From NCBI GenBank assembly GCA_017553545.1, contig JAFZKT010000056.1:1-37577 (forward strand): a DNA stretch of 37,577 bases. Reading direction: 5' to 3'. A program made the position numbers and the translations under genes. The notes under the pieces are model-generated. The model saw nothing but the letters and a program-made list of their open reading frames with translations. It searched no databases and had not been told where the DNA came from. Each line of letters starts with the position of its first letter. Position 1 is the stretch's first letter. Of this stretch, positions 3,954 to 29,792 are shown one piece after another. This DNA comes from Bacteroidales bacterium. GTDB lineage: Bacteria > Bacteroidota > Bacteroidia > Bacteroidales > UBA932.

Positions 3954-5818
3954 ACCTGTGGGACCTCATACGGGACTTCTTGGGAAACCTGTTCGCTTTT
4001 GACCAGGCGCATCCGCTGCTGTTCACCCAGTTCTACTTCTGGGCTTTCTTCGCGCTGGTGTTCGCCGTATTTTCCTGTTTCCACTCGAAGGTACTGCTGC
4101 GGAACGGATACCTGTTCGCCTGCTCGCTGTTCTTCTACTACAAGACAAGCGGAGTATTCCTGGCGCTGCTGGTCTTCGTAATTGTCTATAACTTCTTGGC
4201 AGCCAAATGGTTGCACCGGACAAAAAACGAACGGGGGCGCACAGCCATCACCGCTCTGAGCGTAGTGGTGGACCTGGGGATTCTGGCGTATTTCAAGTAC
4301 GCCTATTTCCTGGCAGATTTCGTAGGCAACCTCTTCGGGCTGTCCATCCAGGTGCACGACGTGCTGGGCGAATTCCTGAACGCGGTTACGGGGACATCGG
4401 CCTTCCGGGTGGACGCGATTATCCTTCCTGTGGGTATATCCTTCTTTACCTTCCAGGCGGTGAGCTACATCGTGGACGTGAAGCGGCAGAAGATAGAACC
4501 CGTGCGGAATTTCCTGGATTTCGGCTTCTACCTTTCCTTCTTCCCGCAGTTGGTGGCCGGTCCCATCGTTCGCGCCGTAGAGTTTGTCCAGCAGCTGCAC
4601 AAGCCGTATAATCTTTCGCGCCGATGGTTCGGTATCGCCATCTTCTGGATTATGAACGGCCTGATGAAAAAGCTCATCCTGGCCGACTATCTGGCGGTGA
4701 ATTTCGCAGACCGCGTCTTCGAGAACCCGCTGATGTACAGCGGTTTCGAGAATTTGTCGGCCCTCTTCTGCTATTCCCTGCAGGTCTATGCGGATTTCTC
4801 CGGCTACACGGACATCGCCACGGGTGTCGCCATGCTCTTCGGCTTCTACCTGCCGCAGAACTTCAATTCGCCCTATAAGGCCGAAAACACCCAGCAGTTC
4901 TGGCGCAGGTGGCACATGACTTTGAGCCGCTGGCTGCGGGATTATCTGTATATTCCCCTCGGAGGCAACCGGAATGCATCGGCCGGGACGTTCATCATTA
5001 TTGGCGCCATTGCCGTAATCGGGAGCTTCCTGAGCGGTTCCTGGTGGGTGGCCTTCGGTGTTTTTGTGCTGGCGTTCGGGATTGGAATCTGGGCGTGGCT
5101 CCGGCCGGATGACCGCAAGCTCATCACCACAAACATCAACTCCATGAACACCATGCTGCTGGGCGGCCTCTGGCACGGCGCCAGCTGGAATTTCATGATC
5201 TGGGGCGGCCTCAACGGCGTCGGCATGGTGATTTATAAGATCTGGACCAAGCGGGCGCCGTGGGTGAAACTGCTGATTATTTCCATTATTACGGCGTTGT
5301 GCTTCGCCCTGGCATACTATACCGGCTATCCCGTCTGGAACCTGTTCTTCGTCTGGACGCTGATTATCCTGGTAGGGACGGTGGTGAAGACCCTGATACG
5401 ACATTTCTGTCATTCTGAGCGTAGCGAAGAATCTCATTTATCACGCGCCTGGGACATCTTTCAAACGTTCGTGTTTATTACGTTTACCCGTCTGTTCTTC
5501 CGCAGCGGTTCCAACCTGGACCCCGCGCTGGCCAATGAACAGGCCTGGAACACCGCCAAAAACATGGTGAACCAGATCGGCGGCCACTGGGACCTTTCCC
5601 TGGTGCCGGCCATGGCCTGGCAGCACCGCACGGTGCTCATCCTGTTTGTGGTGGGAATGATTATCCACTGGCTGCCGGACCGCTTCAAACGGCGTTATCG
5701 GCTCACATTCGCCAGCCTGCCGCTCTTCTGGATGGCCTTGGTGGTGGTGGCTATCCTGGTATTCATCTACCAGTTCATCACCGCCGACCTGCAGAGCTTC
5801 ATCTATTTCCAGTTCTAA
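3950..5818 (+). CDS. MBOAT-family O-acyltransferase (AlgI/DltB-like)
   Basis: This 622-residue polytopic membrane protein carries the MBOAT signatures PQLVAGPIVRA, FNSPYKAENTQQFWRRWHMT with His322, and GGLWHGASWNF with the conserved membrane His409. Such proteins pass an acyl group from a cytoplasmic donor across the membrane to a periplasmic SGNH partner; two SGNH genes lie directly upstream with 4-nt overlaps. Between a membrane segment ending near residue 482 and the next conserved block (about residue 500) there is an in-frame stretch containing CHSERSEESH, which is translated from a dispersed DNA repeat (5408-5434). The protein reads through it without interruption. The product is probably an O-acetylated surface glycan, but the acceptor is not known. 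Confidence 0.92.
   Translation: MNLWDLIRDFLGNLFAFDQAHPLLFTQFYFWAFFALVFAVFSCFHSKVLLRNGYLFACSLFFYYKTSGVFLALLVFVIVYNFLAAKWLHRTKNERGRTAITALSVVVDLGILAYFKYAYFLADFVGNLFGLSIQVHDVLGEFLNAVTGTSAFRVDAIILPVGISFFTFQAVSYIVDVKRQKIEPVRNFLDFGFYLSFFPQLVAGPIVRAVEFVQQLHKPYNLSRRWFGIAIFWIMNGLMKKLILADYLAVNFADRVFENPLMYSGFENLSALFCYSLQVYADFSGYTDIATGVAMLFGFYLPQNFNSPYKAENTQQFWRRWHMTLSRWLRDYLYIPLGGNRNASAGTFIIIGAIAVIGSFLSGSWWVAFGVFVLAFGIGIWAWLRPDDRKLITTNINSMNTMLLGGLWHGASWNFMIWGGLNGVGMVIYKIWTKRAPWVKLLIISIITALCFALAYYTGYPVWNLFFVWTLIILVGTVVKTLIRHFCHSERSEESHLSRAWDIFQTFVFITFTRLFFRSGSNLDPALANEQAWNTAKNMVNQIGGHWDLSLVPAMAWQHRTVLILFVVGMIIHWLPDRFKRRYRLTFASLPLFWMALVVVAILVFIYQFITADLQSFIYFQF
5408..5434 (+). repeat. Short dispersed repeat inside the MBOAT gene
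   Basis: This 27-bp stretch (key part CATTCTGAGCG then AGCGAAGAATCT) resembles a short repeat that I recall from many Bacteroidetes and other bacterial genomes, usually intergenic. Here it is read in frame as CHSERSEES. Only one copy is in this window, so the repeat status rests on recall. Confidence 0.6.
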
Positions 5819-5854
5819 GATTAGCCCTGGGGCGTAATTAATTGATTATTTGTA

Positions 5855-5933
5855 ACTTGCAAATAGAGGGGTGCACTTCTAGGTGCACCCCTTTGTTAGC
5901 AACACGCTATCAATCAGCATCTTGCGCTCCAGC
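5855..5933. repeat. 79-bp palindromic repeat, copy A, with bidirectional hairpin
   Basis: A 10-bp perfect stem AGGGGTGCAC/GTGCACCCCT (5867-5876 and 5883-5892, loop 6 nt) is the centre. The whole 79 bp aligns without gaps, in reverse orientation, to 19304-19382 with 57 of 79 identical positions, including both ends. It lies between the convergent MBOAT and rsmA genes and ends 5 nt from the rsmA stop codon. A short T-rich run (TTTGTT) follows the stem on the plus strand, so it may also stop transcription. Confidence 0.75.
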
Positions 5934-5937
5934 GCTT

Positions 5938-6744
5938 TTATGCCAACAGATTAGTGAGGGCAACAAAGTCCTCCACGGAGAGTTGTTCCGGGCGCTGGGT
6001 GAAGACGGGTTGGGCCAGGAATGCCTGAAGTTCTTCCGGGGACCAGCCGAGGCGGGCGGCCTTGGCGGCGGCGAGGGGCTTCAACGGATTCCGCATCATC
6101 TTGCGGCGCTGGCCGAAAGCGGTTTTCACCACGGTCTTGAAGAGTTTTTCATCACAACCCAATGACGTGCGGCCGTTCCGCGTGAGCCGAATCACTGCGC
6201 TCTCCACTTTTGGCGGCGGAGCAAAGCAGCCGGAGCCCACGGTGAACAGGTATTCGATATCATACCAGGCTTGTAGCAACACGCTCAGAATGCCATAGGT
6301 TTTGCTCCCCGGTTTTTCGGCAATCCTTTCGGCCACCTCCTTCTGGACCATCCCCACCACTTCTGGGATACGGTCCTTATAATCAAGGACTTTGAAGAAA
6401 ATCTGCGAGGAAATATTGTAAGGGAAATTGCCGATGATAGCAAACTCCGACGGGAAGATTTTCTCCAGCTTTAGCTGTAGGAAATCCCCTTCCATCAGCC
6501 GCCCCTGCATCCCCTGGAAATGCGTCAGCAGATAATCCACGCTCTCGTGATCTAACTCGATGAGCCGAAGATCAATATCCTCCCTCTCCAGCAGGTACTG
6601 GGTGAGCACTCCCATGCCGGGGCCTACTTCCAGGACCTGCAGGACAGAGGCAGACTCTGCCTGCAACGCATCAACGATGCTCCGGGCCACTTTCTGGTCC
6701 GTCAGGAAATGCTGCCCCAAGGCTTTTTTCGCGCGTACTTCCAT
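5938..6744 (-). CDS. rsmA: 16S rRNA (A1518/A1519-N6) dimethyltransferase
   Basis: This is a 268-residue RsmA/KsgA, the usual length. It transfers four methyl groups from S-adenosylmethionine to two adjacent adenines of the 3' hairpin of 16S rRNA late in 30S assembly. Visible signatures are the N-terminal KKALGQHFL, the SAM-binding VLEVGPGMGVLT, and the catalytic NFPYN (IIGNFPYNISS). It is transcribed leftwards, divergent from aspS, and has its own -7 box 7 nt before the ATG. Its stop codon lies next to repeat copy A. Confidence 0.97.
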   Translation of the reverse strand: MEVRAKKALGQHFLTDQKVARSIVDALQAESASVLQVLEVGPGMGVLTQYLLEREDIDLRLIELDHESVDYLLTHFQGMQGRLMEGDFLQLKLEKIFPSEFAIIGNFPYNISSQIFFKVLDYKDRIPEVVGMVQKEVAERIAEKPGSKTYGILSVLLQAWYDIEYLFTVGSGCFAPPPKVESAVIRLTRNGRTSLGCDEKLFKTVVKTAFGQRRKMMRNPLKPLAAAKAARLGWSPEELQAFLAQPVFTQRPEQLSVEDFVALTNLLA

Positions 6745-6751
6745 GGTAAGG

Positions 6752-6759
6752 CAAAGATA
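6752..6759 (-). promoter_or_regulatory. -7 promoter box of rsmA (TATCTTTG)
   Basis: On the minus strand TATCTTTG fits TAnnTTTG and lies 7 nt before the rsmA ATG, so the transcript should have little or no leader. No convincing -33 TTG is seen. Confidence 0.6.
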
Positions 6760-6772
6760 AGTATATTTTTCT

Positions 6773-6799
6773 TATCTTTGTAAGTTAGATTATAACTTA
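6773..6799 (+). promoter_or_regulatory. -7 promoter box of aspS and leader hairpin
   Basis: TATCTTTG at 6773-6780 matches TAnnTTTG, 28 nt before the aspS ATG. Just downstream, TAAGTTA (6781-6787) and TAACTTA (6793-6799) can form a 7-bp hairpin in the short leader. It is back to back with the rsmA promoter. Confidence 0.6.
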
Positions 6800-6808
6800 C
6801 ACAGAGGT

Positions 6809-8578
6809 ATGTACAGAACTCACACTTGCGGGGAACTCCGCCTGGAGAACAAGGGACAGCGCGTGACGCTGGCCGGATGGGTGCAGAAAGTCCGTAAACT
6901 GGGCGGCATGACCTTCATCGACCTCCGGGACCGCTATGGCATTACGCAGATTGTGGTGGCGGCCGATGCATCGGCCCAGATGGTGGAGGCAGTCGCCTCC
7001 CTGGGACGGGAATTCGTGATCCAGGCCACCGGCACCGTGGTGGAACGCCAGGCCAAGAATGCCAAAATGCCCACCGGTGACATCGAACTCCAACTGGAAA
7101 GCTTCAACGTGCTGAACAAGAGCGTCACCCCGCCCTTCACCATTGAGGAAGAAAGCGACGGCGGCGAAGACCTCCGCATGAAATACCGTTACCTGGACCT
7201 GCGCAGAGGGCCCCTGCAGCGCGCCCTGGCCCTCAGGCACAAAGTGGCCCATGAATGCCGCAATTACCTGGATTCCAAGGGATTCATGGAAATTGAAACC
7301 CCTTACCTGATCAAGTCCACCCCGGAAGGCGCCCGCGACTTCGTGGTTCCTTCCCGGATGAACCCCGGTCAGTTCTACGCCCTGCCCCAGAGCCCCCAGA
7401 CCTTCAAGCAGCTCTTGATGGTAGCCGGCTATGACCGCTATTTCCAGATTGTCCGCTGCTTCCGCGACGAAGACCTCCGCGCGGACCGTCAGCCGGAATT
7501 CACCCAGATAGACTGCGAGATGGCTTTCGTGGAGCAGGAAGACGTGCTGGACACCTTCGAAGGGATGATGCGCACCCTGTTCAAGAACGTGCTGAACGTG
7601 GACATCCCCAACCCGCTGCCCCGGATGAGCTGGTACGACGCCATGGACAAATACGGTTCCGACAAACCGGACATCCGCTTCGGGATGACCATCCACAATA
7701 TTACATCGGCCGCTAAAGGAAAGGGCTTCAGCATCCTGGACGACGCCCCTTACATCGGCGCCATCTGCGTACCCGGCGCGGCGGAATACACCCGCAAGCA
7801 GATCGACGAACTCACGGACTGGGTCAAACGTCCGCAGGTGGGCGCAAAGGGGCTCATCTACATCCGCGTGAATGGGGACGGCAGCTTCAAGTCCTCCATC
7901 GACAAATTCTACGGGGCCGATGACCTTAAGCATATTGCCGATGTAGCCGAGGCCAAACCCGGCGACCTCATCCTGGTTCTCAGCGGCGCCCTCCGCAAGA
8001 CGCAGACGATGCTGGGCGTGCTCCGCATCGAGATGGGGAACCGTCTGGGCCTCCGCAACCCGCACGAGTTCGCCCCGCTGTGGATCGTGGACTTCCCGCT
8101 GCTGGAATGGGACGACGAAACCCAGCGCTTCTACGCCATGCACCACCCCTTCACCGCCCCCAAGCCGGAGCACGAAAAGTGGTTCTACAGCGACAAGAAG
8201 GAAGACCTGGAGCGCGTGTGCGCCAACGCCTACGACTTTGTGCTGAACGGCAACGAACTGGGCGGCGGCTCCATCCGTATCCATAATGCCGACATGCAGA
8301 AGCGCATGTTCGAAGTCCTTGGCATCGGCCCGGAAGAGGCGGACTACAAGTTCGGCTTCATCATCAACGCCTTCAAGTTCGGCGCCCCGCCGCACGGCGG
8401 CCTCGCCTTCGGCTTCGACCGCGTGTGCGCCCTGATGGGCGGCCAGGACACCATCCGGGATTACATCGCCTTCCCGAAGAACAACCAGGGCCGCGACGTA
8501 ATGATTGACTCCCCGTCCCTCATCGACCAGGTGCAGCTGGACGAACTCCAGATTGACGTCAAGGTAAAAAGCGAATAA
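6809..8578 (+). CDS. aspS: Aspartyl-tRNA synthetase
   Basis: This 589-residue class II synthetase has the usual bacterial length and charges tRNA-Asp (cytoplasm). An OB-fold anticodon domain comes first ([22 protein letters not shown]), then class II motif 2 ([19 protein letters not shown]), the bacterial GAD insertion, and motif 3 ([13 protein letters not shown]) with the C-terminal [10 protein letters not shown]. It opens a run of tightly spaced genes: its TAA shares one base with the murB ATG. At 6961-6976 it contains the octamer GGCCGATG directly followed by its reverse complement. Confidence 0.98.
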
Positions 8579-9585
8579 TGAAACAGTTCCCCTATTTCGA
8601 TCTCTCAAGGCACAACACCTTCCGCATGAAGGTGCGCTGCGCCCTGTACCTTGAAATCGAGAAAGAGGAAGAACTGCTGAAGCTGGACTGGAACGCCCTG
8701 CCGCAGCCCGTCATGGTCCTCGGCGGCGGTTCCAACCTGCTCTTCACCGGCAATTACCCCGGCACCATCCTGCACATAAACATCTTAACGCAGCAGGGCT
8801 ATACTTTCGGCGCCGGCGTGGTGTTCGATGATTTCTGCGCCTGGGCGGCCCAGGAGGGCCTCTGGGGCCCGGAGAATCTGTCGCTCATTCCGGGGGAATG
8901 CGGCGCATCGGCCGTACAGAACATCGGTGCTTACGGCGTGGAGGCAAAGGACATCATCGCCGGAATCCGTGCCTTTGACCGCCAGGAGGGCAAGTTCGTG
9001 GACATCGACCCGGCGGACTGCGAATACGGCTATCGCACCTCCCGTTTCAAGACGGAGTGGAAGGGCCGATTTGTCATCACAGCCGTCACCTATCGCCTCT
9101 CGAAAGAGCCCAGGCCCGTCCTGGACTACGGCGGCGTCCGCAAGGCGCTGGAGGCCACCGGGCACACGGGAGCACTCACCCCTCAGATTATCCGCGACAC
9201 CATCATCGGGATAAGGCGCAAAAAACTGCCGGATCCGGCGGAAACGGGCAGTGCCGGAAGCTTCTTCTGCAATCCCGTTATAAGCAGGGAGCAATTCGAC
9301 AAGGTGGTCGCCATCGCGCGGGAAGACAACGGGCCGGACTACCAAGTCCCGCACTATGAGGTGGACGACCGAATCAAAGTCCCTGCCGCCTGGATGATCG
9401 AGCAGTGCGGCTTCAAGGGCCGTGTGCTCGGCGGCGCGCAGGTGTATCCCAACCAGCCGCTGGTGATAGTGAACGCAAGCGGGGAGGCTTCCCCGGAAGA
9501 AATCATCGGCCTGGAGCAGCAGGTCATCGACGGCGTAAAAGCCAAATATGGAATAACCCTCCACCCCGAAGTAGAGCACGTCTGA
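8578..9585 (+). CDS. murB: UDP-N-acetylenolpyruvoylglucosamine reductase
   Basis: This 335-residue FAD enzyme makes UDP-MurNAc from the MurA product with NADPH. Signatures are HNTF near the start, the FAD-binding VLGGGSNLLF, NIGAYGVE, the substrate-binding YGYRTSRFK, and GSAGSFFCNPV, in which the second Ser is the proton donor of the family. PAAWMIEQCGFKG near the end fits the E. coli-like type I enzyme. The start codon overlaps the aspS stop by one base. murA lies three genes downstream, so both committed steps of peptidoglycan precursor synthesis are in one transcription run. Confidence 0.97.
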   Translation: MKQFPYFDLSRHNTFRMKVRCALYLEIEKEEELLKLDWNALPQPVMVLGGGSNLLFTGNYPGTILHINILTQQGYTFGAGVVFDDFCAWAAQEGLWGPENLSLIPGECGASAVQNIGAYGVEAKDIIAGIRAFDRQEGKFVDIDPADCEYGYRTSRFKTEWKGRFVITAVTYRLSKEPRPVLDYGGVRKALEATGHTGALTPQIIRDTIIGIRRKKLPDPAETGSAGSFFCNPVISREQFDKVVAIAREDNGPDYQVPHYEVDDRIKVPAAWMIEQCGFKGRVLGGAQVYPNQPLVIVNASGEASPEEIIGLEQQVIDGVKAKYGITLHPEVEHV

Positions 9586-9587
9586 AC

Positions 9588-10202
9588 ATGCCCCGATTCC
9601 CGCTCATACCATTTGGAGTCCTTCTGCTGGCCCTGTCCTGTTCTTCCGTCGCGGAGGAGCGGGTATTCCCGCTGGAGGAAATGAGGGAAGGGGACCTGGT
9701 CTTCCGCCGCGGACGGAGCCTCTCCAGCCACGCGGTGATGATAGCGGAAAAAGACGGCCGATACAGCCATATCGGCATGCTGGTCAAAGATGGAGGCACC
9801 TGGAAGGTGGTTCACTCCGTCCCCGACGAAGAAGAATTCGACGGAGACTTCGACCGCGTGAAAATGGACGACCTCTCAGTCTTCTTTTCGGCCGATCGGG
9901 CCAGCAAGGGCAGTTTTGTGCATACCGCCCTCATGGACAGCGCCCGCATCGCAGACCTTTGCCAAACAGCCATCCGGATGGCCAGGGACAGCGTCCGCTT
10001 CGACCACGACTATAATACCGACGACCCGTCGGAGCTCTACTGTACCGAATTCATCTGGAGACTTTACGCCCGCGAAGGGATTGACCTCTCTGAAGGCCGA
10101 CGCCAAACCGTCCACCTTCCCATCCTTGGAATCGACGGAGACATCCTTCTTCCCGAACATCTGTTTGCCCATGCCGGCAATCGTGAATATCATTCTTTTT
10201 AA
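9588..10202 (+). CDS. YiiX/YebB-like permuted papain-fold lipoprotein
   Basis: This 204-residue protein starts at ATG 9588, two nt after the murB stop; the frame is open further upstream but inside murB. The N terminus has a lipobox-type signal (LLALSC, Cys18). It contains EGDLVFRRG, then SRYSH-like GRYSHIGML with the conserved His, and later ELYCTEFIWRLY with the conserved Cys, the pattern of the permuted NlpC/P60-related family around YiiX. In that family the Cys and His form a papain-like amidase site. The location after murB suggests a cell-envelope role, such as cleaving an amide in peptidoglycan or lipids; the substrate is unknown. Confidence 0.8.
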   Translation: MPRFPLIPFGVLLLALSCSSVAEERVFPLEEMREGDLVFRRGRSLSSHAVMIAEKDGRYSHIGMLVKDGGTWKVVHSVPDEEEFDGDFDRVKMDDLSVFFSADRASKGSFVHTALMDSARIADLCQTAIRMARDSVRFDHDYNTDDPSELYCTEFIWRLYAREGIDLSEGRRQTVHLPILGIDGDILLPEHLFAHAGNREYHSF

Positions 10203-10222
10203 CCAATAAAACCCAAACACTT

Positions 10223-10792
10223 ATGAAAAAGTTAGTCATTTTCCTTTCAATCGCCCTGTGCGCATTGTTCACCGTTTCCTGCAAATCCGGCCCTGAGGCT
10301 GTTGCAGACAAAGCCATGAACGCCCTCCAAAAAGGGGACCTCGAAACCTATTTCTCCACCATGGACCTCGACAAAGAATCAAAAAGCGTGGTTTCCCTGA
10401 TGGGAGATAAGATTCTCGAGCCAATTAAAGAAAAAGGAGGCATCAAGAGCTATACCATCGGCAAGGCTGTGATTGACGGCGAAAAAGCCACTGTCCCTGT
10501 CTCCATCAAATATGGTGACGGATCCGAAGAAAATTTCGACATGGCTTTCATCAAAAAGGATAAAGAATGGAAACAGACCGGCAATTCCAGTTTTGGATCC
10601 GGCTTGGGTTCCGCTTTTGGCGACATCTCTGAATCGGAAGCCGACAATTTTGGATCCGACAATGATTACGCTTTTGACGATGAATCTGAATCGGAAGACG
10701 AAGACGCTTTCGAAGACGAAGACGCTCTCGAAGACGAAGACGCTTTCGAAGACGAAGATATTGTTGAAGTTCAAGACACTCTTGAGTGGTAG
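10223..10792 (+). CDS. DUF4878-like lipoprotein with acidic repeat tail
   Basis: This 189-residue protein has a lipoprotein signal (ALFTVSC, Cys at about residue 20). The middle part (about 24-125) resembles the DUF4878/NTF2-like fold: SGPEAVADKAMNALQKGDLE then ending KKDKEWKQTG. The last 35 residues are very acidic, mostly four repeats of EDEDA(F/L). The gene has lower GC than its neighbours and uses more GAA/AAA. It lies 20 nt after the YiiX-like gene and 44 nt before murA. Function unknown; the assignment to DUF4878 is from memory. Confidence 0.75.
   Translation: MKKLVIFLSIALCALFTVSCKSGPEAVADKAMNALQKGDLETYFSTMDLDKESKSVVSLMGDKILEPIKEKGGIKSYTIGKAVIDGEKATVPVSIKYGDGSEENFDMAFIKKDKEWKQTGNSSFGSGLGSAFGDISESEADNFGSDNDYAFDDESESEDEDAFEDEDALEDEDAFEDEDIVEVQDTLEW
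10694..10765 (+). repeat. Tandem 18-bp coding repeat (4 units)
   Basis: Four units at 10694, 10712, 10730 and 10748 each encode EDED plus two residues. The first three differ by one base (CTTTC/CTCTC); the fourth has diverged. Near identity at DNA level indicates recent slippage-type expansion. Confidence 0.9.
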
Positions 10793-10836
10793 CGGAGAAA
10801 AAGAAGCAGCCCAGAAAAAGTATTCAATAGCGTTTA

Positions 10837-12144: not shown

Positions 12145-12146
12145 AA

Positions 12147-13241: not shown

Positions 13242-15359
13242 ATGGACTACGGAAAGTACTTTTCGGCGGACGTGCCGTCGTTTCTGAGAAGCCCGGTAAG
13301 GGAGATATTCCGGAAGGTGGACCTTTCGGCTATCTGCTCGTTTGCCGGCGGCTATCCGGCGGCGGAGACCTTCCCCGTGGAGGAAATCCCGGCCCTTTCA
13401 GCGGCGGTCCTGGCCAAATACGGGCCGAAAGCCCTGCAGTACGGTGCCACGCAAGGGGTGCCTCAGCTGCGGGAAGCCATCGCCGCCCGTTACGGCGTCC
13501 CCGTCTCCCAGGTGCTCATCACCACCTCCTCCCAGCAGGGCATTGACATCTGTTCCCGGGTGTTCTTGAACCCCGGCGATGTAGTCCTGGCCAATAATCC
13601 CGTCTATCTGGGAGCTTTGCAGAGTTTCAAAGCATATAGGGCGGAGGTGGTGCCGCTGGAGGCCGCCAGATCGGCTGTGGTGGACCTGGTCCAGGGCATT
13701 TTTGGACGAGGTTCAATTCCAGGTGCTGGACCTGGTCCAAGCAGTGTGGCTTCCAGGCCCCTCCAGGGCAATGTGGGTGGACCTGGTCCAGGGGGTAAAA
13801 GTAAACCGCGTCCAAAAAGTGGGTGGACCTGGTCCAGGGCAAAAGCCGATGGCCCTACGACCGCCCCGAAATTCATCTACGTAATTCCGGATTTTAACAA
13901 TCCTACTGGGAAAACCTTATCTCTGGAGGAACGGAAGGCGATTGTGCGGATTGCGAGAGAATTGGATATATTGATTGTGGAGGACAGCCCTTACCGGGAA
14001 CTGCGGTACAGCGGCGAGAGCGTAACGAGCATCCGCGAACTAGCACCCGAGCGTACGCTGCAGCTGGGGTCCTTCTCCAAGATTTTCGCACCGGGGTTCC
14101 GGCTGGGGTGGATCATCGGCCCGGAAGAACTGCTGGAACAGATTTACGTCTGCAAACAGTGCCTGGACCTGTGCCCGCCCGTATTTGACCAGTATCTGGC
14201 GACGGAATTCCTCACCAGCGGCGCACTGGACCGCAACCTCAAAAAGACCGTGGAGCTCTATCGGCACAGAAGGGATAAAATGCTGGCCCTGCTGGAGAAA
14301 TATATGCCTGAAGGTGTCACCTGGACCCATCCGGAAGGCGGCCTGTTCCTCTGGCTCACCCTGCCGGAGAGCATCGATGCAGTGGCGCTCTATGACCGTG
14401 CGCTGGACGCCGGCGTGGCCTATGTGGCCGGCTCGTTCTTCTACACGGACGGCAGCCACCGCAACACCATGCGCCTCAATTACTCCTTTATCGAAGAAGA
14501 AAAGATGGAACCCGGCATAAAACTCCTCGCCTCCCTGCTGAGCCCGGCGGAAACCGCCTACAAATTCTCCGGTGCCGGCAACGATTTCGTGGTGCTGGAC
14601 GGCAGAAAGGCCGATGTCTCCGCTTATCGGCAGAAAGAACGCATCGGCGAGCTTTGCAGGAAATACCGCACCGACGGTCTGATGATCCTGGGCGAAAAGC
14701 CCGGCGTAGACTTCGCGATGGAGTTCTTCAATCCGGACGGCACGGGCGGAATGATGTGCGGCAACGGCGGCCGCTGCATCGTGGCCTTCGCCTCAATGAT
14801 GGGCATCAAGCCTGCATCGGCCGATGGCATCTGGCGCTTCCAGGCCCCCGACGGCCTGCACGAAGCGCAGATCCTGCAAGGTGGGGAGATACTTCCCCAC
14901 CGGAGCAAGTGGACTGTGCGGCTGAAGATGATTGACGTGGAAGGAGTCCGGCCGATGATGGGCGGCTACTTCCTCAACACCGGGACAAGGCACTTCGTGA
15001 AGTTCGTCAGGGACGTCGAAGGCATCGATATGGAAAAGGACGGTCCCGAATACCGCTGGGATGAGGCTTTCCAGCCGGAAGGCGCCAACGCCAACTTCGT
15101 GCAGGTGGCTCCGGACGGACTGCACGTCCGTACCTTCGAGAAAGGTGTGGAGGCCGAAACCCTGGCCTGCGGGACGGGGATTACGGCAAGCGCCGTGGCG
15201 GCCTGCTATGCGGGGATTCCCGGCGCGGCAGAAGGCAGTTACAGACTGCAGTGCCGCCGCGGGGACTGGCTGCAAGTGGACTTTAACATCAGCGGCGAAA
15301 AATACACCGACGTGTACCTCACCGGTCCGGCGGAAATGGTAAAAACGGTAAAACTATGA
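13242..15359 (+). CDS. dapF: Fused PLP aminotransferase (putative DapC) and diaminopimelate epimerase (DapF)
   Basis: This is a 705-residue two-domain protein. Residues 1 to about 430 are a fold-type I aminotransferase of the MocR/LysN-like group: VIPDFNNPTGKT, VEDSPYRELRY and SFSKIFAPGFRLGW, with Lys280 as the PLP lysine. From about residue 440 follows DapF: YKFSGAGNDFVVLD, MMCGNGGRC with Cys506 and ETLACGTGITAS with Cys643, the two catalytic cysteines. DapF interconverts LL- and meso-DAP. All other steps from aspartate to meso-DAP except N-succinyl-DAP aminotransferase are encoded nearby, so I infer that the N-terminal half does that step. Residues about 147-200 are a Gly/Pro-rich in-frame insert from a palindromic repeat. 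The stop overlaps dapA by 4 nt. Confidence 0.92.
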   Translation: MDYGKYFSADVPSFLRSPVREIFRKVDLSAICSFAGGYPAAETFPVEEIPALSAAVLAKYGPKALQYGATQGVPQLREAIAARYGVPVSQVLITTSSQQGIDICSRVFLNPGDVVLANNPVYLGALQSFKAYRAEVVPLEAARSAVVDLVQGIFGRGSIPGAGPGPSSVASRPLQGNVGGPGPGGKSKPRPKSGWTWSRAKADGPTTAPKFIYVIPDFNNPTGKTLSLEERKAIVRIARELDILIVEDSPYRELRYSGESVTSIRELAPERTLQLGSFSKIFAPGFRLGWIIGPEELLEQIYVCKQCLDLCPPVFDQYLATEFLTSGALDRNLKKTVELYRHRRDKMLALLEKYMPEGVTWTHPEGGLFLWLTLPESIDAVALYDRALDAGVAYVAGSFFYTDGSHRNTMRLNYSFIEEEKMEPGIKLLASLLSPAETAYKFSGAGNDFVVLDGRKADVSAYRQKERIGELCRKYRTDGLMILGEKPGVDFAMEFFNPDGTGGMMCGNGGRCIVAFASMMGIKPASADGIWRFQAPDGLHEAQILQGGEILPHRSKWTVRLKMIDVEGVRPMMGGYFLNTGTRHFVKFVRDVEGIDMEKDGPEYRWDEAFQPEGANANFVQVAPDGLHVRTFEKGVEAETLACGTGITASAVAACYAGIPGAAEGSYRLQCRRGDWLQVDFNISGEKYTDVYLTGPAEMVKTVKL
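13681..13836. repeat. 156-bp symmetric palindromic element inside the aminotransferase domain
   Basis: Four copies of the palindrome TGGACCTGGTCCA start at 13681, 13727, 13778 and 13824. The stem 13699-13713 pairs with 13804-13818 (14 of 15). All of these are placed mirror-symmetrically about 13758.5, with mismatched internal loops between them and a 38-nt centre. The stretch is translated in frame (VDLVQGIF... to ...GWTWSRAK) between conserved blocks of the aminotransferase. Confidence 0.85.
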
Positions 15360-16225: not shown

Positions 16226-16226
16226 T

Positions 16227-17003
16227 ATGGAAATCGGCCTGAAAGAATTCAACGAAACCCTGGACGCCCTGGAAAAGGGGCAGCTGAGGGTTGCCGAAAA
16301 AGTGGACGGCGTTTGGAAAGTGAACACGCACGTCAAGGAGGTGATCCTGGCGGGCTTCAAGCTGGGCGCCGTGAAGGAGATGTCCCAGGGGCAGTTCTCC
16401 TATTTTGACAAGGAGACCTTCCCGGTGCGGCAGTTCAGCGCCCAAGACGGCGTCCGCATCGTTCCGGGCGGCAGCAGCATCCGACGGGGAGCCTATCTGG
16501 CGCCTGGCAGCATTGTGATGCCTCCCGCCTACGTGAACGTGGGCGCCTATGTGGGCGAAGGCACCATGGTGGACAGCCACGTCACCATCGGCTCCTGCGC
16601 TCAGGTAGGGAAACGCATCCATATATCGGCCTCCACGCAAATTGGCGGGGTACTGGAACCGGCAGGCGCCCTTCCCACCATCATCGAGGACGACGCCTTT
16701 GTGGGCGGCAACTGCGGCATCTATGAGGGCACCATCGTGGAAGAAGGGGCGGTCATCGCCTCGGGCGTAATCATCACCTCCTCCACCGCCATCTTCGACG
16801 CCACCACCGGGGAATTTATCAGAAGGAATGCCGATGGCCGCATCGTGGTGCCGAAAGGCGCCGTGGTGGTGAGCGGCTCCAAACCCATCGTGCGGGACGG
16901 AAAAGCGTTGGAGAGCGGCGTGCATCTCTACTGCCCCGTCATCGTGAAATACCGCGATGCCAAAACCGCCGGAAGTATTCACTTAGAAGATTTGTTAAGA
17001 TGA
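16227..17003 (+). CDS. dapD: Tetrahydrodipicolinate N-succinyltransferase
   Basis: This 258-residue protein is a left-handed beta-helix acyltransferase with hexapeptide repeats through the middle (SIRRGAYLAPGSIVMPPAYV, VNVGAYVGEGTMVDSHVTIG, GGNCGIYEGTIVEEGAVIAS). The match to the DapD family means that this organism uses the succinylase route and not the dehydrogenase or LL-DAP aminotransferase route. It is slightly shorter than the approximately 274 residues of the proteobacterial enzyme. It sits between dapA (1 nt gap) and asd (4-nt overlap). Confidence 0.93.
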   Translation: MEIGLKEFNETLDALEKGQLRVAEKVDGVWKVNTHVKEVILAGFKLGAVKEMSQGQFSYFDKETFPVRQFSAQDGVRIVPGGSSIRRGAYLAPGSIVMPPAYVNVGAYVGEGTMVDSHVTIGSCAQVGKRIHISASTQIGGVLEPAGALPTIIEDDAFVGGNCGIYEGTIVEEGAVIASGVIITSSTAIFDATTGEFIRRNADGRIVVPKGAVVVSGSKPIVRDGKALESGVHLYCPVIVKYRDAKTAGSIHLEDLLR

Positions 17004-17992
17004 AAGTCGCCGTTGTAGGAGCCACCGGCCTGGTGGGCTCGAAAATGTTGGAAGTGCTGGAGGAGCGCGGGTTTCCGGTGAGCGAACTGCTACCGGTGGC
17101 CTCCGAGCGTTCCTGGGGGAAGAAAGTGCGCTTCCGGGGCCGTGAGTGGACGGTGATATCGGCCGATGAAGCCATCGCCCAAAAACCCGCCCTGGCCCTA
17201 TTCAGCGCCGGCGGTGCGGTTTCGGCCGACCTTGCGCCGAAGTTCGCCGCCGTGGGCTGCTACGTGGTGGACAATTCCTCGCAGTGGCGGATGGACCCTT
17301 CGGTGCCGCTGATTGTGCCGGAGATCAACGCCGATGTTCTGCGGCGGGAAGACCACATCATCGCCAACCCCAACTGCTCCACCATCCAGATGGTCCTGCC
17401 GCTGGCGCCCCTCCACAAGGCCTACGGCATCAAGCGCATCGTGGTGAGCACCTATCAGAGCGTGACGGGCGCGGGCCAGCGGGGCATCGAGCAGCTGGAG
17501 GCCGAAGAAAAAGGCGGCTCCGGCAGTAAGTTCCCCCACTGCATCCACCGCAACATCCTGCCGCATATTGACATCTTTATGCCGGACGGCTCCACCCGGG
17601 AGGAAACGAAGATGGTCAATGAAACGCGGAAGATCCTGCGGGATCCTTCCATTGCCGTTTCCGCCACCTGCGTGCGCGTGCCGGTGGAAGGCGGTCATTC
17701 AGAGAGCGTAAATATCGAACTGTCAAAGCCTTACGAACTGTCGGAAGCCTGCCGCCTGATGGCCGATATGCCCGGCGTGGTTTTGCAAGATAACCCCGCC
17801 GAAAACCTCTATCCCATGCCCATCAACGCCTGGGGTAAGGACGATGTCTTCGTAGGCCGCATCCGCCGGGACGCCTCGGTGGAAAACGGCCTCAACCTCT
17901 GGTGCGTCAGCGACAACCTCCGCAAAGGCGCCGCCACCAACGCCGTGCAGATAGCGGAAGTGCTGTTGCGGAATGGTTGGTTGCAATCTTAA
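17000..17992 (+). CDS. asd: Aspartate-semialdehyde dehydrogenase
   Basis: This 330-residue NADPH enzyme reduces aspartyl phosphate to the semialdehyde that feeds both DapA and homoserine synthesis. VAVVGATGLVGSKMLEVLEERGF is the Rossmann start, NPNCSTIQM holds the catalytic Cys126, and TYQSVTGAGQRG and GGHSESVNIEL fit the family (active-site His in the latter). The start overlaps dapD by 4 nt. The stop codon lies within an inverted repeat (17988-17996). Confidence 0.97.
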   Translation: MKVAVVGATGLVGSKMLEVLEERGFPVSELLPVASERSWGKKVRFRGREWTVISADEAIAQKPALALFSAGGAVSADLAPKFAAVGCYVVDNSSQWRMDPSVPLIVPEINADVLRREDHIIANPNCSTIQMVLPLAPLHKAYGIKRIVVSTYQSVTGAGQRGIEQLEAEEKGGSGSKFPHCIHRNILPHIDIFMPDGSTREETKMVNETRKILRDPSIAVSATCVRVPVEGGHSESVNIELSKPYELSEACRLMADMPGVVLQDNPAENLYPMPINAWGKDDVFVGRIRRDASVENGLNLWCVSDNLRKGAATNAVQIAEVLLRNGWLQS

Positions 17993-18046
17993 GCATAAAA
18001 AGCATGGAAATCATGCTTAAGATGGTAAGCACTGACCATCTAAAGC
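17984..18046. repeat. Inverted repeats at the asd-dapE junction
   Basis: CTTAAGCAT (17988-17996) pairs with ATGCTTAAG (18013-18021). AGATGGT (18021-18027 region) and ACCATCT form a second small stem. TAAGATGGTA occurs at 18018 and again at 18070. The 12-mer at 17984-17995 and the 14-mer at 18033-18046 recur at 1236-1247 and 1215-1228. This is the only real gap in the plus-strand dap run, so it may act as a processing or attenuation site; that is only a guess. Confidence 0.5.
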
Positions 18047-18085
18047 ACAAAAATGGCACTGGGCGTGCCTAAGATGGTAGAGCAG

Positions 18086-19330
18086 ATGAATTGGAACTTA
18101 TATAAAGAGATTTTATCCATCGATTCCACTTCCGGCAAGGAGCGGAAGTTGGCCGAATGGCTCCTGGAGCACCTGGAAGCCCCCGCGAAACAAGCGATGG
18201 AAGTGGGCGACGGCACCCTGAACCTCCTCTTCAGCTGGGGAACGCCCAAAGTGGTGTTCTGCACCCATCTGGACACCGTCCCGCCGTACATCGCACCCTG
18301 CTTCGGGGGAAAACTCCCTCCGGAGGACTTGTCCACCCCCGGACAAGGGCAGCGTTTTCCGGAGGGAACAGGCGGCGGGGGGCTTGTCCACCCCCGGACG
18401 AGTATAGGGGGAGGGGCCCGTTGGATACAAGTTCCCGAAGGGGACGCAGGAGACAATGGGAGGGGCCGGAACGAGCGAAGCGAGTATAGTCCCCCCGCCG
18501 CCTGCTCCTCTCTAGAAGCTATTTTTGGACGCGGGACCTGCGATGCAAAGGGGCAGATTTTTGCGATGTATGAGGCGTGTAAGGCGCTGGAAGCAAAGGG
18601 ATGCAGGGACTTCGGACTGCTGCTGCTTGCCGGTGAGGAGACAGGCTCCGGGGGCGCGAAGGCGTTTTCCAAGACGGGCTTCGAGGCTCCGTTCCTCATT
18701 GTGGGCGAACCCACGGAGAACAAAATGGTCAGCGCGGCGAAGGGCACGCTATCTTATGACTTGAAGTTCGAAGGAAAGGCTTTCCATTCCGGCTATCCGG
18801 AGTTTGGCGAAAGCGCCATCGATAAGTTCAACGAATTCTATAACAAGCTGAAAGCGAAGGACTTCGGCGAGGATCCGGAACTGGGAAAGACAACCTGGAA
18901 TGTGGGGCTTCTCAGGAGCGACAATCCGCAGAACATCCTTTCGCCGGAAGTGACTTGCCGGCTGTATTTCCGTACCACTTTCGTTTCGCACGAGGCGGTA
19001 AAAGCGTGGATGCAGGAGATGGCCGGTCATGACGGAAGCGCGCACGGTCCCAAAGGCGTCATCCCCGGCTTGACCGGGGATCTCAGAGGTGGCGACGTCC
19101 CCGCCCGGTACGTCACCCTGCCGGGCTTCGAATCGGCCCCCGTCGCCTTCGGCTCCGACGCCCCGCACCTTACGGGCTTCGGCCACAAGATCATCTGCGG
19201 CCCGGGAAGCATCCGCTTCGCCCATCGGCCCGACGAACACATCCTCCCGCAGGAGCTGGAAGCAGCCATCGGCCTCTACACCCGCCTCTACGCAACCCTG
19301 ATGGCTGGAGCGCAAAGTATTGATTCATAG
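18086..19330 (+). CDS. dapE: M20 metallopeptidase, putative succinyl-diaminopimelate desuccinylase, with two in-frame repeat inserts
   Basis: The metal-ligand set of the M20 family is complete: CTHLDTVP (His61, Asp63), GRGTCDAKG (Asp153), AGEETG (Glu184/185), a further Glu in VGEPTENK, and the late His in RPDEH. It hydrolyses an N-acyl bond; given dapD and the dap genes around it, N-succinyl-LL-DAP is the expected substrate. His61 to Asp153 is about 60 residues longer than usual, because a palindromic repeat (18316-18504) lies in between and is read in frame. A second in-frame repeat (19058-19083, read as GVIPGLTGD) lies near the C-terminal domain. The final residues and stop codon belong to repeat copy B. 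Start is uncertain: the frame is open from ATG 18053; 18086 gives the typical N terminus. Confidence 0.88.
   Translation: MNWNLYKEILSIDSTSGKERKLAEWLLEHLEAPAKQAMEVGDGTLNLLFSWGTPKVVFCTHLDTVPPYIAPCFGGKLPPEDLSTPGQGQRFPEGTGGGGLVHPRTSIGGGARWIQVPEGDAGDNGRGRNERSEYSPPAACSSLEAIFGRGTCDAKGQIFAMYEACKALEAKGCRDFGLLLLAGEETGSGGAKAFSKTGFEAPFLIVGEPTENKMVSAAKGTLSYDLKFEGKAFHSGYPEFGESAIDKFNEFYNKLKAKDFGEDPELGKTTWNVGLLRSDNPQNILSPEVTCRLYFRTTFVSHEAVKAWMQEMAGHDGSAHGPKGVIPGLTGDLRGGDVPARYVTLPGFESAPVAFGSDAPHLTGFGHKIICGPGSIRFAHRPDEHILPQELEAAIGLYTRLYATLMAGAQSIDS
18316..18504. repeat. Palindromic dispersed repeat, copy inside dapE
   Basis: A small hairpin unit opens it (CCCTCCGGA 18316-18324 with TCCGGAGGG 18358-18366, containing CTTGTCC/GGACAAG). 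Then perfect 14-bp arms CAGGCGGCGGGGGG (18369-18382) and its complement (18491-18504) enclose a 108-nt core. Two core blocks, 18407-18435 (29 bp) and 18442-18469 (28 bp), are identical to the inverted copy at 1003-1168. The spacer between the blocks and the outer arms differ. CTTGTCCACCCCCGGAC occurs twice (18328 and 18383). It is free of stops in the dapE frame. Confidence 0.88.
19058..19083 (+). repeat. Hairpin repeat, second in-frame insert in dapE
   Basis: ATCCCCGG (19061-19068) and CCGGGGAT (19074-19081) form a perfect 8-bp stem with a 5-nt loop. In frame it reads GVIPGLTGDL, a peptide I recall as the translation of a common dispersed repeat in bacterial genomes. Only this copy is in the window. 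Confidence 0.65.
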
Positions 19331-19382
19331 CAAGATACGGAAAGAGGGGTGCACACCCAGGTGCACCCCTGAATAAGCAAGT
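19304..19382. repeat. 79-bp palindromic repeat, copy B
   Basis: Stem AGGGGTGCAC (19345-19354) and GTGCACCCCT (19361-19370), loop 6 nt. It aligns without gaps to 5855-5933 inverted (57 of 79 identical; 12 of 12 at one end, 6 of 6 at the other). Its first part supplies the last codons and the stop of dapE, and it ends 30 nt before dapB. Confidence 0.75.
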
Positions 19383-19412
19383 GATTGATTATTAAACAGG
19401 TACACTCCAGGT

Positions 19413-20075
19413 ATGATCAAGGTCATTATCAGCGGATACGGCCGGATGGGCCACATGGTGGAGAAAGAGCTCCAAAAACGCGGAATCGAACTGGTGGAAG
19501 CCAGCGAGGATATCACGGCGACGGACCCGGCGAAGGCGAAGGAGTGCGTCTGCATTGACTTTACCACACCCGAAGCTTTCCGGGCCAACTACCCCTTCAT
19601 CGCCAAAAACTTCAAGGCGGCGGTGGTGGGCACCACGGGCTGGAATGACATTGAGGCCGATGTCCGCAAGGCCTTCGATGATGCAGGCACCACCCTCATC
19701 TACGCCTCCAACTTCTCCCTGGGGGTGAACGCCCTCTATGCCGCCGTCACAAAGGTCTCGGCCATGCTGAAAGGCAACGGCTATAAGGCCGAAATCGAAG
19801 AAATCCATCACATCCACAAACTGGACGCCCCTTCCGGCACGGCAAAGGTGCTGGGTGCGCTGGTGGAAAAGGAACTGGGCGAAAAGCCCGAAATCACCTC
19901 CGTCCGCGAGGGTGAAGTGCCCGGCATTCACACGCTTACGCTCACATCGGCCGAAGATAAGATTACCCTTCGTCACGAAGCCTTCTCCCGCGAAGGCCTG
20001 GCCAAAGGGGCAGTAATAGCAGCCCTGATGACCGAAGATCACCAGGGCGTGCACGAATTCAGCGAATTGCTGTAG
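19413..20075 (+). CDS. dapB: 4-hydroxy-tetrahydrodipicolinate reductase
   Basis: This 220-residue NAD(P)H enzyme follows DapA. ISGYGRMGHMV is the Rossmann start, VVGTTGW and YASNFSLGVN are typical, and EIHHIHKLDAPSGTA holds the catalytic His and Lys. It is shorter than the 240-270 residues of the enterobacterial type; the compact form is usual for Bacteroidetes as far as I recall. It is convergent with the aspartokinase gene (4 nt between stops). No -7 box could be seen in the short gap after repeat copy B. Confidence 0.96.
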   Translation: MIKVIISGYGRMGHMVEKELQKRGIELVEASEDITATDPAKAKECVCIDFTTPEAFRANYPFIAKNFKAAVVGTTGWNDIEADVRKAFDDAGTTLIYASNFSLGVNALYAAVTKVSAMLKGNGYKAEIEEIHHIHKLDAPSGTAKVLGALVEKELGEKPEITSVREGEVPGIHTLTLTSAEDKITLRHEAFSREGLAKGAVIAALMTEDHQGVHEFSELL

Positions 20076-20078
20076 GGC

Positions 20079-22190
20079 TTACCTTAATATATCATTGAGA
20101 ATACTGCTGGCGGCTTCGCGGGCGCCTTCACCGGGGCCTTGAATCACCAGCGGATAAGGATGGAAGGCGCTGCGCACGATGATGGCATTCTCCGTCCCCC
20201 GCAGATAATAGGCGGGATGTTCGGGCGCCACTTCCTTGAGGGCGATGCTGGCCCTATAACCGCGGGCCGATTTCTCCAGACAAGCCACAAACCGCTGACG
20301 GAAGCCCTTGAAAGCAACCGCCTGCGCTTTTTCAGCCCACTTCGGTTCATAGGCCTCCAGCGCAGCGTAGAACTGCTCCAGGCTGCCTTCCAGCACGGAG
20401 GGCGGCACAACCGGCTCCACCTGAACCGCCGACTCTTCCAACTGCACGCCGGCTTCCCGTGCGAGAATAAGGAGCTTCCGGAGGGCGTCCCGTCCGCCCA
20501 GGTCCACGCGGGGATCCGGCTCGGTGAGCCCTTCCGCCGCGGCGCGACGCACAAGCGAAGCGAAGCTGGGTCCGCCGGGCTTATAGTCACTTAAAATCTG
20601 GTTCAGGGTGCAGGAAACCACGGCCTCGATGGACAGAACCTCATTGCAGCTGTTTGCTCCACGGGCGATGGATTCCAGGATGGGAAGCGCAGCGCCAACG
20701 GTGGTTTCATAGCGGAGCGGGACACCGTTTTCGCGCGCCGCAGCCACCATGGCGGCATAGTCCGCATAAGGAACGGCGAACGAGCGGCGGTTGGAAGAAA
20801 CGATGCCGATTCCCGCCTGCAGCAGGTCCGTATAGCGTTTGTAGAGCGTTTTGCTATTGGTGGCGTCAATGAAAAGCGAGCCCTTGGGCGCCACCTGAAG
20901 AATGGCGTCGATGTAATCCCCCTCCAGGCCGATGACAGGCGCTCCGCCCAGGTCAATCCCATAGCGGCGGCTGTTCGCCCGCCCCACTACGCGGAGGGTT
21001 TTTCCGCTGCGTTCCTTCACGGCCGATGCGCTTTCTTGAATGAGCTGAATCAAGGCTTTTGCCACGGCTCCGTCGCCGGCGATGAAGAGGTTTACCTCCT
21101 GCACGGGCAGTTCCTGGAAGAAAGCCCGGTGGATGGCCCGCAGGGCCTGGTCCAGCACGGCTTCCTTCACCTCGATATCCACCCCGGAACCATCCTCAGA
21201 GATACTCAAAGCCTGAATCCCGGCCTGTTGGAGGGCATTGTCGGCCTGTCCGGAGGCGGACACCCCTGAGGGAGCATCGGCCTTCTTTTTAGCGACCGAA
21301 GGGGTGTTCCCTCCGGCATGGCCGGCAGCCCCCACCAACCTGATGCACCCCCCCTCCGAAGCAACGCCAATCCAGCGGGCGGCATCCGCCTCCGCGCCGA
21401 TGACGGTGTACTTGCCGTCCGGAGCGAAAGTGTTGCGAATCTCGATATCGATCCCGGCGGCCATGGCGGGCGCCACGGTGGGCGCATACAGCACTTTGGC
21501 ACCGTGAGAGGCCATATCCAGTGCAGCGGCATAGGACATCCGCGGCACGGTACGGGCGGCGGGAACCTGCTTGGGGTTGGCCGTCATGATGCCGGGGACG
21601 TCGGTCCAAATCTGAAGACTATCGGCCTGTACTGCAGCAGCATAAAGGGCTGCGGAATAGTCCGATCCTCCGCGTCCCAGCGTGGAAATCTTCCCGGAAG
21701 CATCCCGGCAGATGAAGCCGGGCGCCACGAAAATCTCCGCGTCGGACGCCTCCACGGCAGCACGGATCCGCTTGAAACTCTCTGGTTCATCGGCCTTTAC
21801 CACCAACTCGCGCGAATCCAGCCACAGCACCCGGTAGCCTTCCGTTTCCAACTTTGCCGCCAGAAGGGTGGTGGAGAAGATTTCGCCGAAAGTGACACGT
21901 TCGTCCGCGGGAGCCTGACGCATCTGCTGGAACAACCCGTCCAGCCGCCGCTGCAGGGATTCCCGGTCCGCACCGGTAAAAAGGCGGCGCACCATATCGG
22001 CGTGCCGATGCTCCAATTCCTGCAACTGTTCCCCGTATCCGCTCAGGAGCGCGTCCGTGCAGCCCGCGATGGCGCTGCTTACCAGGATAACCCGGCCTTT
22101 CAAGGCTTCGCGTTCCACGATATCCAGCACCCGCGATACCTGCGTGGCGCCGGCAACGGACGATCCGCCGAATTTTAAAACCCTGTACAT
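20079..22190 (-). CDS. thrA: Bifunctional aspartokinase / homoserine dehydrogenase
   Basis: This 703-residue fusion phosphorylates aspartate (N-terminal, LKFGGSSVAGA from residue 6) and reduces aspartate semialdehyde to homoserine (C-terminal, from about residue 368; LFIAGDGAVAKAL, then ETTVGAALPIL and VVSCTLNQIL). It is about 100 residues shorter than the E. coli enzymes, mostly in the regulatory linker. The remaining ACT-type segment (IRLVGAAG ... ALSISEDGSGVDIEV) is split by an in-frame palindromic insert at residues 291-314. It may therefore respond differently to threonine or lysine. It is the head of the pathway served by the opposite-strand dap genes. A -7 box lies 7 nt before its ATG. 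Confidence 0.95.
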   Translation of the reverse strand: MYRVLKFGGSSVAGATQVSRVLDIVEREALKGRVILVSSAIAGCTDALLSGYGEQLQELEHRHADMVRRLFTGADRESLQRRLDGLFQQMRQAPADERVTFGEIFSTTLLAAKLETEGYRVLWLDSRELVVKADEPESFKRIRAAVEASDAEIFVAPGFICRDASGKISTLGRGGSDYSAALYAAAVQADSLQIWTDVPGIMTANPKQVPAARTVPRMSYAAALDMASHGAKVLYAPTVAPAMAAGIDIEIRNTFAPDGKYTVIGAEADAARWIGVASEGGCIRLVGAAGHAGGNTPSVAKKKADAPSGVSASGQADNALQQAGIQALSISEDGSGVDIEVKEAVLDQALRAIHRAFFQELPVQEVNLFIAGDGAVAKALIQLIQESASAVKERSGKTLRVVGRANSRRYGIDLGGAPVIGLEGDYIDAILQVAPKGSLFIDATNSKTLYKRYTDLLQAGIGIVSSNRRSFAVPYADYAAMVAAARENGVPLRYETTVGAALPILESIARGANSCNEVLSIEAVVSCTLNQILSDYKPGGPSFASLVRRAAAEGLTEPDPRVDLGGRDALRKLLILAREAGVQLEESAVQVEPVVPPSVLEGSLEQFYAALEAYEPKWAEKAQAVAFKGFRQRFVACLEKSARGYRASIALKEVAPEHPAYYLRGTENAIIVRSAFHPYPLVIQGPGEGAREAASSILNDILR
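21250..21316. repeat. Palindromic insert in the regulatory part of aspartokinase
   Basis: CCGGAGG (21250-21256) pairs with CCTCCGG (21310-21316), and ACACCCCT (21260-21267) pairs with AGGGGTGT (21300-21307), with a small asymmetric bulge between. The loop of 32 nt contains one CATCGGCC octamer. It is read in frame, Ala/Gly/Ser-rich, in the ACT-like segment. CCTCCGG arms also occur in the dapE repeat. Confidence 0.65.
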
Positions 22191-29740: not shown

Positions 29741-29758
29741 GGTATAGTTGACGGATTG

Positions 29759-29792
29759 AAAAAACGGACGTTCTTTCGAGCGTCCGTTTTTT
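29759..29792. terminator. Bidirectional terminator between secDF and dnaE
   Basis: Stem AAAACGGACG (29761-29770) and CGTCCGTTTT (29781-29790) with a 10-nt loop, flanked by A on the left and T on the right, so it works in both directions between two convergent genes. Confidence 0.95.

Follow-up and report, generated by a model that had tools for sequence, protein, structure and literature searches.

Five short segments read in frame within conserved genes of a gut Bacteroidales genome most likely represent (at a probability of roughly 0.7, judged from sequence comparison) palindromic selfish elements, short and non-autonomous, that form several families unrelated to one another and are tolerated within the genes of this lineage. 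The segments lie in a window of 37,577 nucleotides, the whole stretch of DNA analysed, which is contig C52 of a draft genome (G000; 1.76 Mb, 89 contigs, 80.5% complete), and the relatives used for comparison are uncultured Bacteroidales or Bacteroidia genomes, many of whose records name ruminants. A sequence-only reading had described the segments as in-frame repeat elements, mostly hairpins or palindromes, that may spread, and likened them to the palindromic elements of Rickettsia, and this is supported save in two parts, namely a link to the DAP pathway and the idea that tolerance follows from being open in several frames.

In-frame repeats in the window and the genome

The five segments were found at the positions and in the reading frames first noted, all in frame, in the genes for MBOAT, aminotransferase-DapF, DapE (two segments) and aspartokinase. 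The observation of in-frame repeats is thus confirmed, and its extent is larger than first noted. The repeats of the window are listed below.

1009..1163, minus strand: family A, intergenic copy with 26-bp terminal inverted repeats
5409..5433, plus strand (segment first given as 5408-5434): REP of the GTCATTCTGAGCG type, read in frame within the MBOAT gene (3950-5818) as the peptide CHSERSEES
5827..5902, plus strand: GGGGTGCAC/GTGCACCCC hairpin repeat, intergenic
13681..13836, plus strand: family B array with four TGGACCTGGTCCA hairpins, read in frame within the aminotransferase-dapF fusion gene (13242-15359)
14880..14901, plus strand: small hairpin GGTGGGGAGATACTTCCCCACC, in frame in the dapF part of that gene; a sixth in-frame hairpin, beyond the five first listed
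18310..18360, plus strand: extra in-frame hairpin joined to the family A copy, just upstream of it; nested or tandem
18361..18512, plus strand: family A element of about 150 bp, in frame in dapE (18053-19330), site 1
19058..19084, plus strand: CGTC-tagged REP hairpin (tag CGTC at 19057-19060), peptide VIPGLTGDL, in frame at dapE site 2
19305..19380, plus strand: the GGGGTGCAC hairpin repeat again, in a copy that overlaps the dapE end
21250..21316, minus strand: family C element of about 67 bp, read in frame as the peptide TPSVAKKKADAPSGVS within the aspartokinase-homoserine dehydrogenase gene (20079-22190)

Searched as DNA against the draft genome, all five segments proved multicopy and dispersed, none of them being single-copy. 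The MBOAT repeat (GTCATTCTGAGCG, SERSEES type) occurs at 19 places (control 0), family B, which consists of arrays of TGGACC[A/T]GGTCCA, at 9 places in 16 rows, the dapE site 2 type (a GTCAT[C/G]CCCGG hairpin) at 15 places (control 0) and family C at 18, with an open reading frame across every copy. Family A likewise occupies 18 places, one of which is the intergenic copy of the window; its 20 rows reduce to this number because two places gave two rows apiece. Family A is in frame in dapE, tyrA, folP, truB and tilS. For family B the in-frame hosts are the aminotransferase, uvrA, a THUMP-like protein and trmB, and the MBOAT repeat type is also in frame in truB, truA and gcpE. A SpoU methylase holds a further copy of the CGTC hairpin type, as do, on visual inspection, uvrA and the region close to the truB start. 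Four of the five segments lie in genes of the DAP pathway, which is true of the window and not of the genome, where in-frame copies occur genome-wide. A special link to this pathway was rejected, as inserts were found in tyrA, folP, truB, truA, uvrA, uvrD, cysS, ileS, fmt, polA and others, and the apparent bias reflects the content of the window alone. Nor are genes the sole niche of the repeats, since many copies of family A, family B and the short REPs are intergenic or stand at gene ends.

The truB gene (L010, and L163 at 3682-4788) carries three in-frame repeats from three families (VIPGLTGNL, SERSEES and family A), and in the uvrA gene of the window's genome (L022, L283) two repeats are read in frame, one a family B array and the other a CGTC-type hairpin.

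Four of the five segments are hairpins or palindromes, as first described, the MBOAT segment being the exception. Folded as single-stranded DNA and compared with 200 shuffles each, the aminotransferase segment gave z = -2.27 (13678-13810 only, which is part of the segment), dapE 18310-18512 gave -2.82, dapE site 2 -3.11 and the aspartokinase segment -3.20; the count of four thus holds at z of -2.3 to -3.2, for one of them in part only, and the MBOAT segment was not unusual as a hairpin in the same test (z = 0.19). Only dapE site 2 (19057-19084) has CGTC at the base of a hairpin of 20-40 bp; the MBOAT copy carries TGTC in its place, and families A, B and C show no CGTC in their window copies. 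The window also holds tandem repeats of 18-bp and 57-bp units at 10588-10783, which encode an acidic (E/D-rich) stretch and are unrelated to the hairpins, and a perfect hairpin with a 12-bp stem and a T run at 29758-29792, which is probably an ordinary terminator.

Shared loops, conserved cores and paired arms

Alignment with homologues revealed relatives that are empty or carry different repeats at the same sites, contrary to what would be expected of ordinary loops shared between homologues. For example, the DapE loop from HxDTV to GRGxCDAKG measures 19-20 aa in 23 of 56 relatives, 21-36 aa in 11 and at least 40 aa in 22 (the relatives come from two collections and one genome may count twice), and the spacing in the window is 87 aa. 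A family A, SERSEES-type or VIPGL-type motif was matched by 17 of the 22 long inserts, the other five matching none of the three, and family A stands at the same place as dapE site 1 in L085, L086, L087 and L091. The GTCATTCTGAGCG repeat is absent from the MBOAT orthologue of L107, the sole orthologue of this gene seen.

The aminotransferase loop, read in 21 sequences, holds unrelated repeats in different species. It is shortest in L104 (75 bases versus 273 in the window) and short in L091 and L103; full family B arrays are present in the window, L095 and L102, and L092 has one family B hairpin. Other sequences carry a SERSEES repeat (L107), a GTCATTTCGAGCG repeat (L114), a GTCATTGCCGGC hairpin (L109), a GGGCCAGGT repeat (L098), family A (L085, L089 and L096, with L100 in the opposite orientation) or, by eye, an apparent relative of family A (L088, L099, L115 and L129), and L097 and L101 show an apparent deletion footprint. 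Six of these sequences (L089, L092, L096, L097, L101 and L115) are 89-94% identical in DNA over their shared stretches and display four loop states. Between L100 and L085, family A is flipped between similar arms, and both orientations are open in the frame of the gene. An origin of the arms by inverted duplication of the target at insertion was considered for L115 against L097 and L101 and dropped, because the apparently empty alleles keep one arm and resemble deletion footprints. In ileS and birA the arms possibly reach into host codons, the relatives being too distant to decide, and for the window copies no base-exact empty site or target-site duplication was obtained among the relatives compared, nor was any transposition event observed.

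Family C gives the fullest view of how these elements sit within genes. Pfam supports the host gene at 15 of the 18 copies, namely lysC, uvrD, cysS, birA, fmt, dnaX, rmlD (two copies), a biotin-carrier protein, ileS, citC/G, atpB, polA, a helix-hairpin-helix protein and an M16 peptidase, and the remaining three hosts were judged by eye to be the end of rnfB, a NapH-like ORF at a contig end and the end of an amidohydrolase gene; here and below, the names RnfB, NapH, ComEA and DprA are tentative assignments. As long ORFs are common in such DNA, the protein matches outweigh the spanning of copies by ORFs, and translation of the insert is less sure in atpB and the helix-hairpin-helix protein, where it lies N-terminal of the matched domain. 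One frame is used by 16 of the 18 copies, the other two reading the reverse strand, although three of the six frames of the consensus are stop-free; the suggestion that the elements are tolerated since they are open in several frames is therefore too simple. Inserts were missing from PDB homologues of all three proteins tested, FolP (query 127 to 178 versus chain 88 to 95), TruB (query 281 to 404 versus chain 137 to 168) and CysS (gaps within 438-461), and TruB is single-copy in the 80.5%-complete draft.

The arms of family C vary between copies yet keep pairing around a conserved core. Across 17 full-length copies, identity is 92% in the 26-bp core, 54% and 63% in the two arms and 29-32% in the sequence outside. 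Codon position 3 of the core is 82% conserved versus 96% at positions 1 and 2, which suggests that part of the core's conservation may be at the level of the peptide. Standard pairs make up 80.6% of the arm pairs, and 49 double-change cells were counted versus 15.3 +- 3.4 in shuffles. Four of five covariation measures were reached by 0/500 shuffles and the fifth by 2/500, with slid controls much lower; the copy L040, which is cut by a contig end, was left out, and the shuffle figures are no probability for related sequences.

At orthologous sites the insert or its core differs between species. The family C insert is absent from birA in 3/3 relatives, ileS is short in 5/7, G028 included, and the aspartokinase core occurs in 0/61 other aligned rows, several of which are truncated there or are distant paralogues. 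In fmt, G028 and G005 have the core of another family, D, where G000 has core C, and two of five relatives are empty; the arms are similar between G000 (core C) and G028 (core D). Similarly, cysS of G028 has core D, inverted, where G000 has core C, and two of three relatives are empty. Among 101 genomes core C was found in G000, with one weak match in G028; core D, sought in 61 genomes, occurs in G005, G006, G019, G027 and G028 and was not found in G000; near-exact patterns of the two cores gave 0 matches each in viral contigs.

The 11 copies of family D have cores that are 91% identical and arms that are 51-52% identical. Arm pairing reaches 10-16 of 16 versus a cross-copy mean of 11.6 and maximum of 16, and the arms of the L094 copy pair no better than this control; as the control also reaches 16, single family D copies are weak as evidence of pairing. 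The clearest case comes from dapF of L108 and L109, where a family D insert stands at the same place with its middle 52 bp identical, while one arm differs by a block of five neighbouring bases and the other arm by the five complementary ones, with pairing kept; by its sequence, this paired change looks like template switching. In addition, an arm pair in the aminotransferase loop goes from T-A to C-G between L089 and L096, which are 93% identical. Arm homogenisation and spacer inversion are the two products of template switching given in PMC8604942, and both have counterparts here in the paired arm changes and inverted cores.

By eye, the family D element of L108 and L109 lies at a position of dapF similar to that of the small hairpin at 14880-14901, which is perhaps a pair of arms left over after loss of a core. 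Two further inserts were noted in relatives: that in ileS of G019 (L247) resembles family D with something nested inside, and polA of G005 (L255) has a linker with an apparent GTCATACCGAGCG-type repeat near the site of family C in G000.

Candidate mobilisers

A REP-associated transposase, which the sequence-only reading had proposed to look for, was sought in the genome and gave three matches, two of them below the Pfam cut-off and one adjoining family B. Y1-type (HuH) matches, many of which are weak, came from 27 of the 37 genomes searched within the genus. Among 53 RAYT-like ORFs tested (out of 84 same-genus rows), 26 are flanked on each side, within 900 bp, by the same hairpin and 27 lack such a matching pair; for control ORFs, taken from contigs other than those of the RAYT-like genes, the count was 3/384. 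Matching hairpins also stand on both sides of the RAYT-like locus L157, which is outside the 53-ORF count. Copies of the GGGGTGCAC/GTGCACCCC hairpin of the window also stand on either side of the RAYT-like gene in L163, at a distance of 20 bp on one side and about 1.06 kb on the other, and a variant of it lies on both sides of the RAYT-like gene in L187.

An HxH motif and an invariant tyrosine are shared by 23 aligned RAYT-like proteins. The NCBI REP transposase model NF047646 matches six of eight such proteins, all under its cut-off, and the other two not at all. Against the PDB, the RAYT profile reached the transposase 2xma at E 0.0016 and TnpArep 4er8 at E 0.089; the top matches, 3mlg (E 3.4e-5) and 21gi (E 1.6e-4), fall on the C-terminal part of the profile and were discounted as unlikely.

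Family B is plausibly moved by a RAYT, to judge from the following arrangement. A family B array starts about 33 bp upstream of the start codon of a G000 RAYT-like gene (L164), on one side only. This gene has a weak genome-level match (20.9 bits versus a cut-off of 23), and its protein has no Pfam or NCBIfam transposase match at the protein level. Its orthologue in G019 (L199; 59% identical) has GGGCCAGGT hairpins on both sides where the G000 gene has GGACCNGGTCC hairpins, and both genes adjoin what we take, by eye, to be dprA. The GGGCCAGGT pattern occurs at 10 places in G019, two of which flank the gene and two of which look like duplicates of two others, perhaps through duplicated contig ends, and at 0 places in G000, G028 and G005; by eye, none of the 10 is clearly within a conserved gene. 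This joint change of repeat and enzyme between G000 and G019 is the best evidence for a family B mobiliser, and the link of family B to a REPtron falls short of proof because the hairpins stand on one side of its gene. Families A and C and the two REP types were checked as flanks of RAYT-like genes at 54 loci and found at none; single, unpaired copies of family A and SERSEES occur within truB of L163, and partial, unpaired CGTC-type matches in L162, L164, L179 and L185.

Competing explanations and related systems

On the preferred reading, REP-like and larger hairpins would spread through the lineage, where they would be gained, lost, inverted and exchanged for one another in tolerant loops. 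Tolerance would be expected when an element lands in a variable loop with a stop-free hydrophilic frame and a frame-keeping length; the insert would then be translated as a flexible loop, and selection would purge insertions whose frame or position is harmful. The adjacent HuH tyrosine transposase may copy family B, and likewise the GGGCCAGGT repeat of a relative, in the form of single-stranded hairpin DNA, and the other families may be mobilised by another RAYT or in trans by an enzyme of the same kind. After insertion, template switching during replication across the hairpin would keep the arms complementary and invert the cores.

It is also conceivable, though rather unlikely, that the inserts are immobile now and represent old, vertically inherited loops, homogenised inside each genome by gene conversion and with arms rewritten by template switching. 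Such concerted evolution would account for the orthologous fmt and cysS sites, where G000 has core C and G028 has core D, for the similar arms in fmt, and for cores confined to G000 and one weak G028 match among 101 genomes (C) or to five of 61 genomes without G000 (D). However, the empty sites of birA (3/3), ileS (short in 5/7), DapE (23/56) and the MBOAT gene of L107 argue against it, and unrelated families at one site are beyond the reach of conversion alone. The enrolment of the inserts in regulating their enzymes, as peptide loops or mRNA hairpins that affect folding, translation speed or stability, appears improbable, since the host enzymes are unrelated and close relatives are empty or carry different repeats at the same site. 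The ORFs spanning 18/18 family C copies, the one frame with a charged flexible peptide in 16/18 and the paired changes that preserve hairpins would fit such adaptation, but template switching can also yield paired changes without selection (PMC8604942).

The strength of the hairpins and the size of the enzyme inserts might instead suggest small introns or bypass elements, removed at the RNA or ribosome level and absent from the protein. This is very improbable, as removal would make needless both the stop-free, frame-keeping character of the DapE and aminotransferase inserts and the frame bias of family C. Least credible of all is that the inserts are ordinary variable protein loops or artefacts of metagenome assembly: the draft is 80.5% complete, some linkers vary naturally and none of the three repeat motifs was matched in 5/22 long DapE inserts, but the repeats are dispersed at the DNA level and recur at the same sites in many separately assembled genomes. 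Returning to mobile selfish elements, we tentatively suggest, at somewhat less than even odds, that some sites act as 'docking loops', with long-lived in-frame hairpin cassettes whose species-specific core is exchanged or inverted and whose site-specific arms are rewritten by template switching; protein loops would then be permanent frame-safe niches that provide new peptide loops in essential enzymes.

Counterparts of the Rickettsia palindromic elements (RPE) exist in Wolbachia. The likeness to RPE drawn at the outset stands as regards in-frame repeated palindromes in unrelated genes, truB included, the host proteins of which likely function (PMC3733652); it does not extend to membership, as the relatives are Bacteroidales or Bacteroidia. 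In contrast to RPE, which belong to another phylum, several families coexist here, unrelated families have loops in common and cores are invertible; moreover, RPE are said in PMC6649704 to lose repeat identity with time, whereas the arms here stay complementary. The elements appear to work like RPE, and filing them as RPE members would be wrong.

Similarities to REP/RAYT systems (REPtrons) and the TnpAREP subclasses include the CGTC tag at dapE site 2 and the RAYT-like genes between matching hairpins. However, the REPs of those systems are mostly intergenic, and families A, B and C are larger, without CGTC and GTAG tags in the copies read; the coding preference of family C and its species-specific cores were likewise not met in the available literature on REPs. 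PMC6006769 describes REPs that lie in frame within tnpAREP genes, as well as a Bacteroidetes subclass with atypical structures. Perfect coding inverted repeats with complementary arms, for which template switching is proposed, are known from nematomorph mitochondria (PMC6649704), but these are animal mitochondria, and the available part of that article mentions no dispersed family with a shared core. MITEs are also short and non-autonomous with terminal inverted repeats, whereas the terminal repeats of family C are unconserved between copies (arms 54% and 63% versus a core of 92%).

The general phenomenon is not new, since CGTC repeats in Bacteroidetes and intragenic REPs in uvrA, a UvrD-type helicase, polA, truA and truB are listed in PMC3733652. 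New here are the scale, the loops common to unrelated families, the species-specific cores and the jointly changing arms. No description of in-gene families A to D or of swapping cores was met in the literature searched, which largely excluded subscription papers and is thus weak evidence of absence.

In-frame palindromic elements are best known from Rickettsia, and several coexisting families of them are found here in gut Bacteroidales, in genes such as ileS, cysS, truB and polA. The joint change of arms offers a natural example resembling template switching in bacterial coding DNA, and the empty, filled, swapped and flipped states of one site in close relatives make insertion, the survival of the gene and a role in protein evolution testable.
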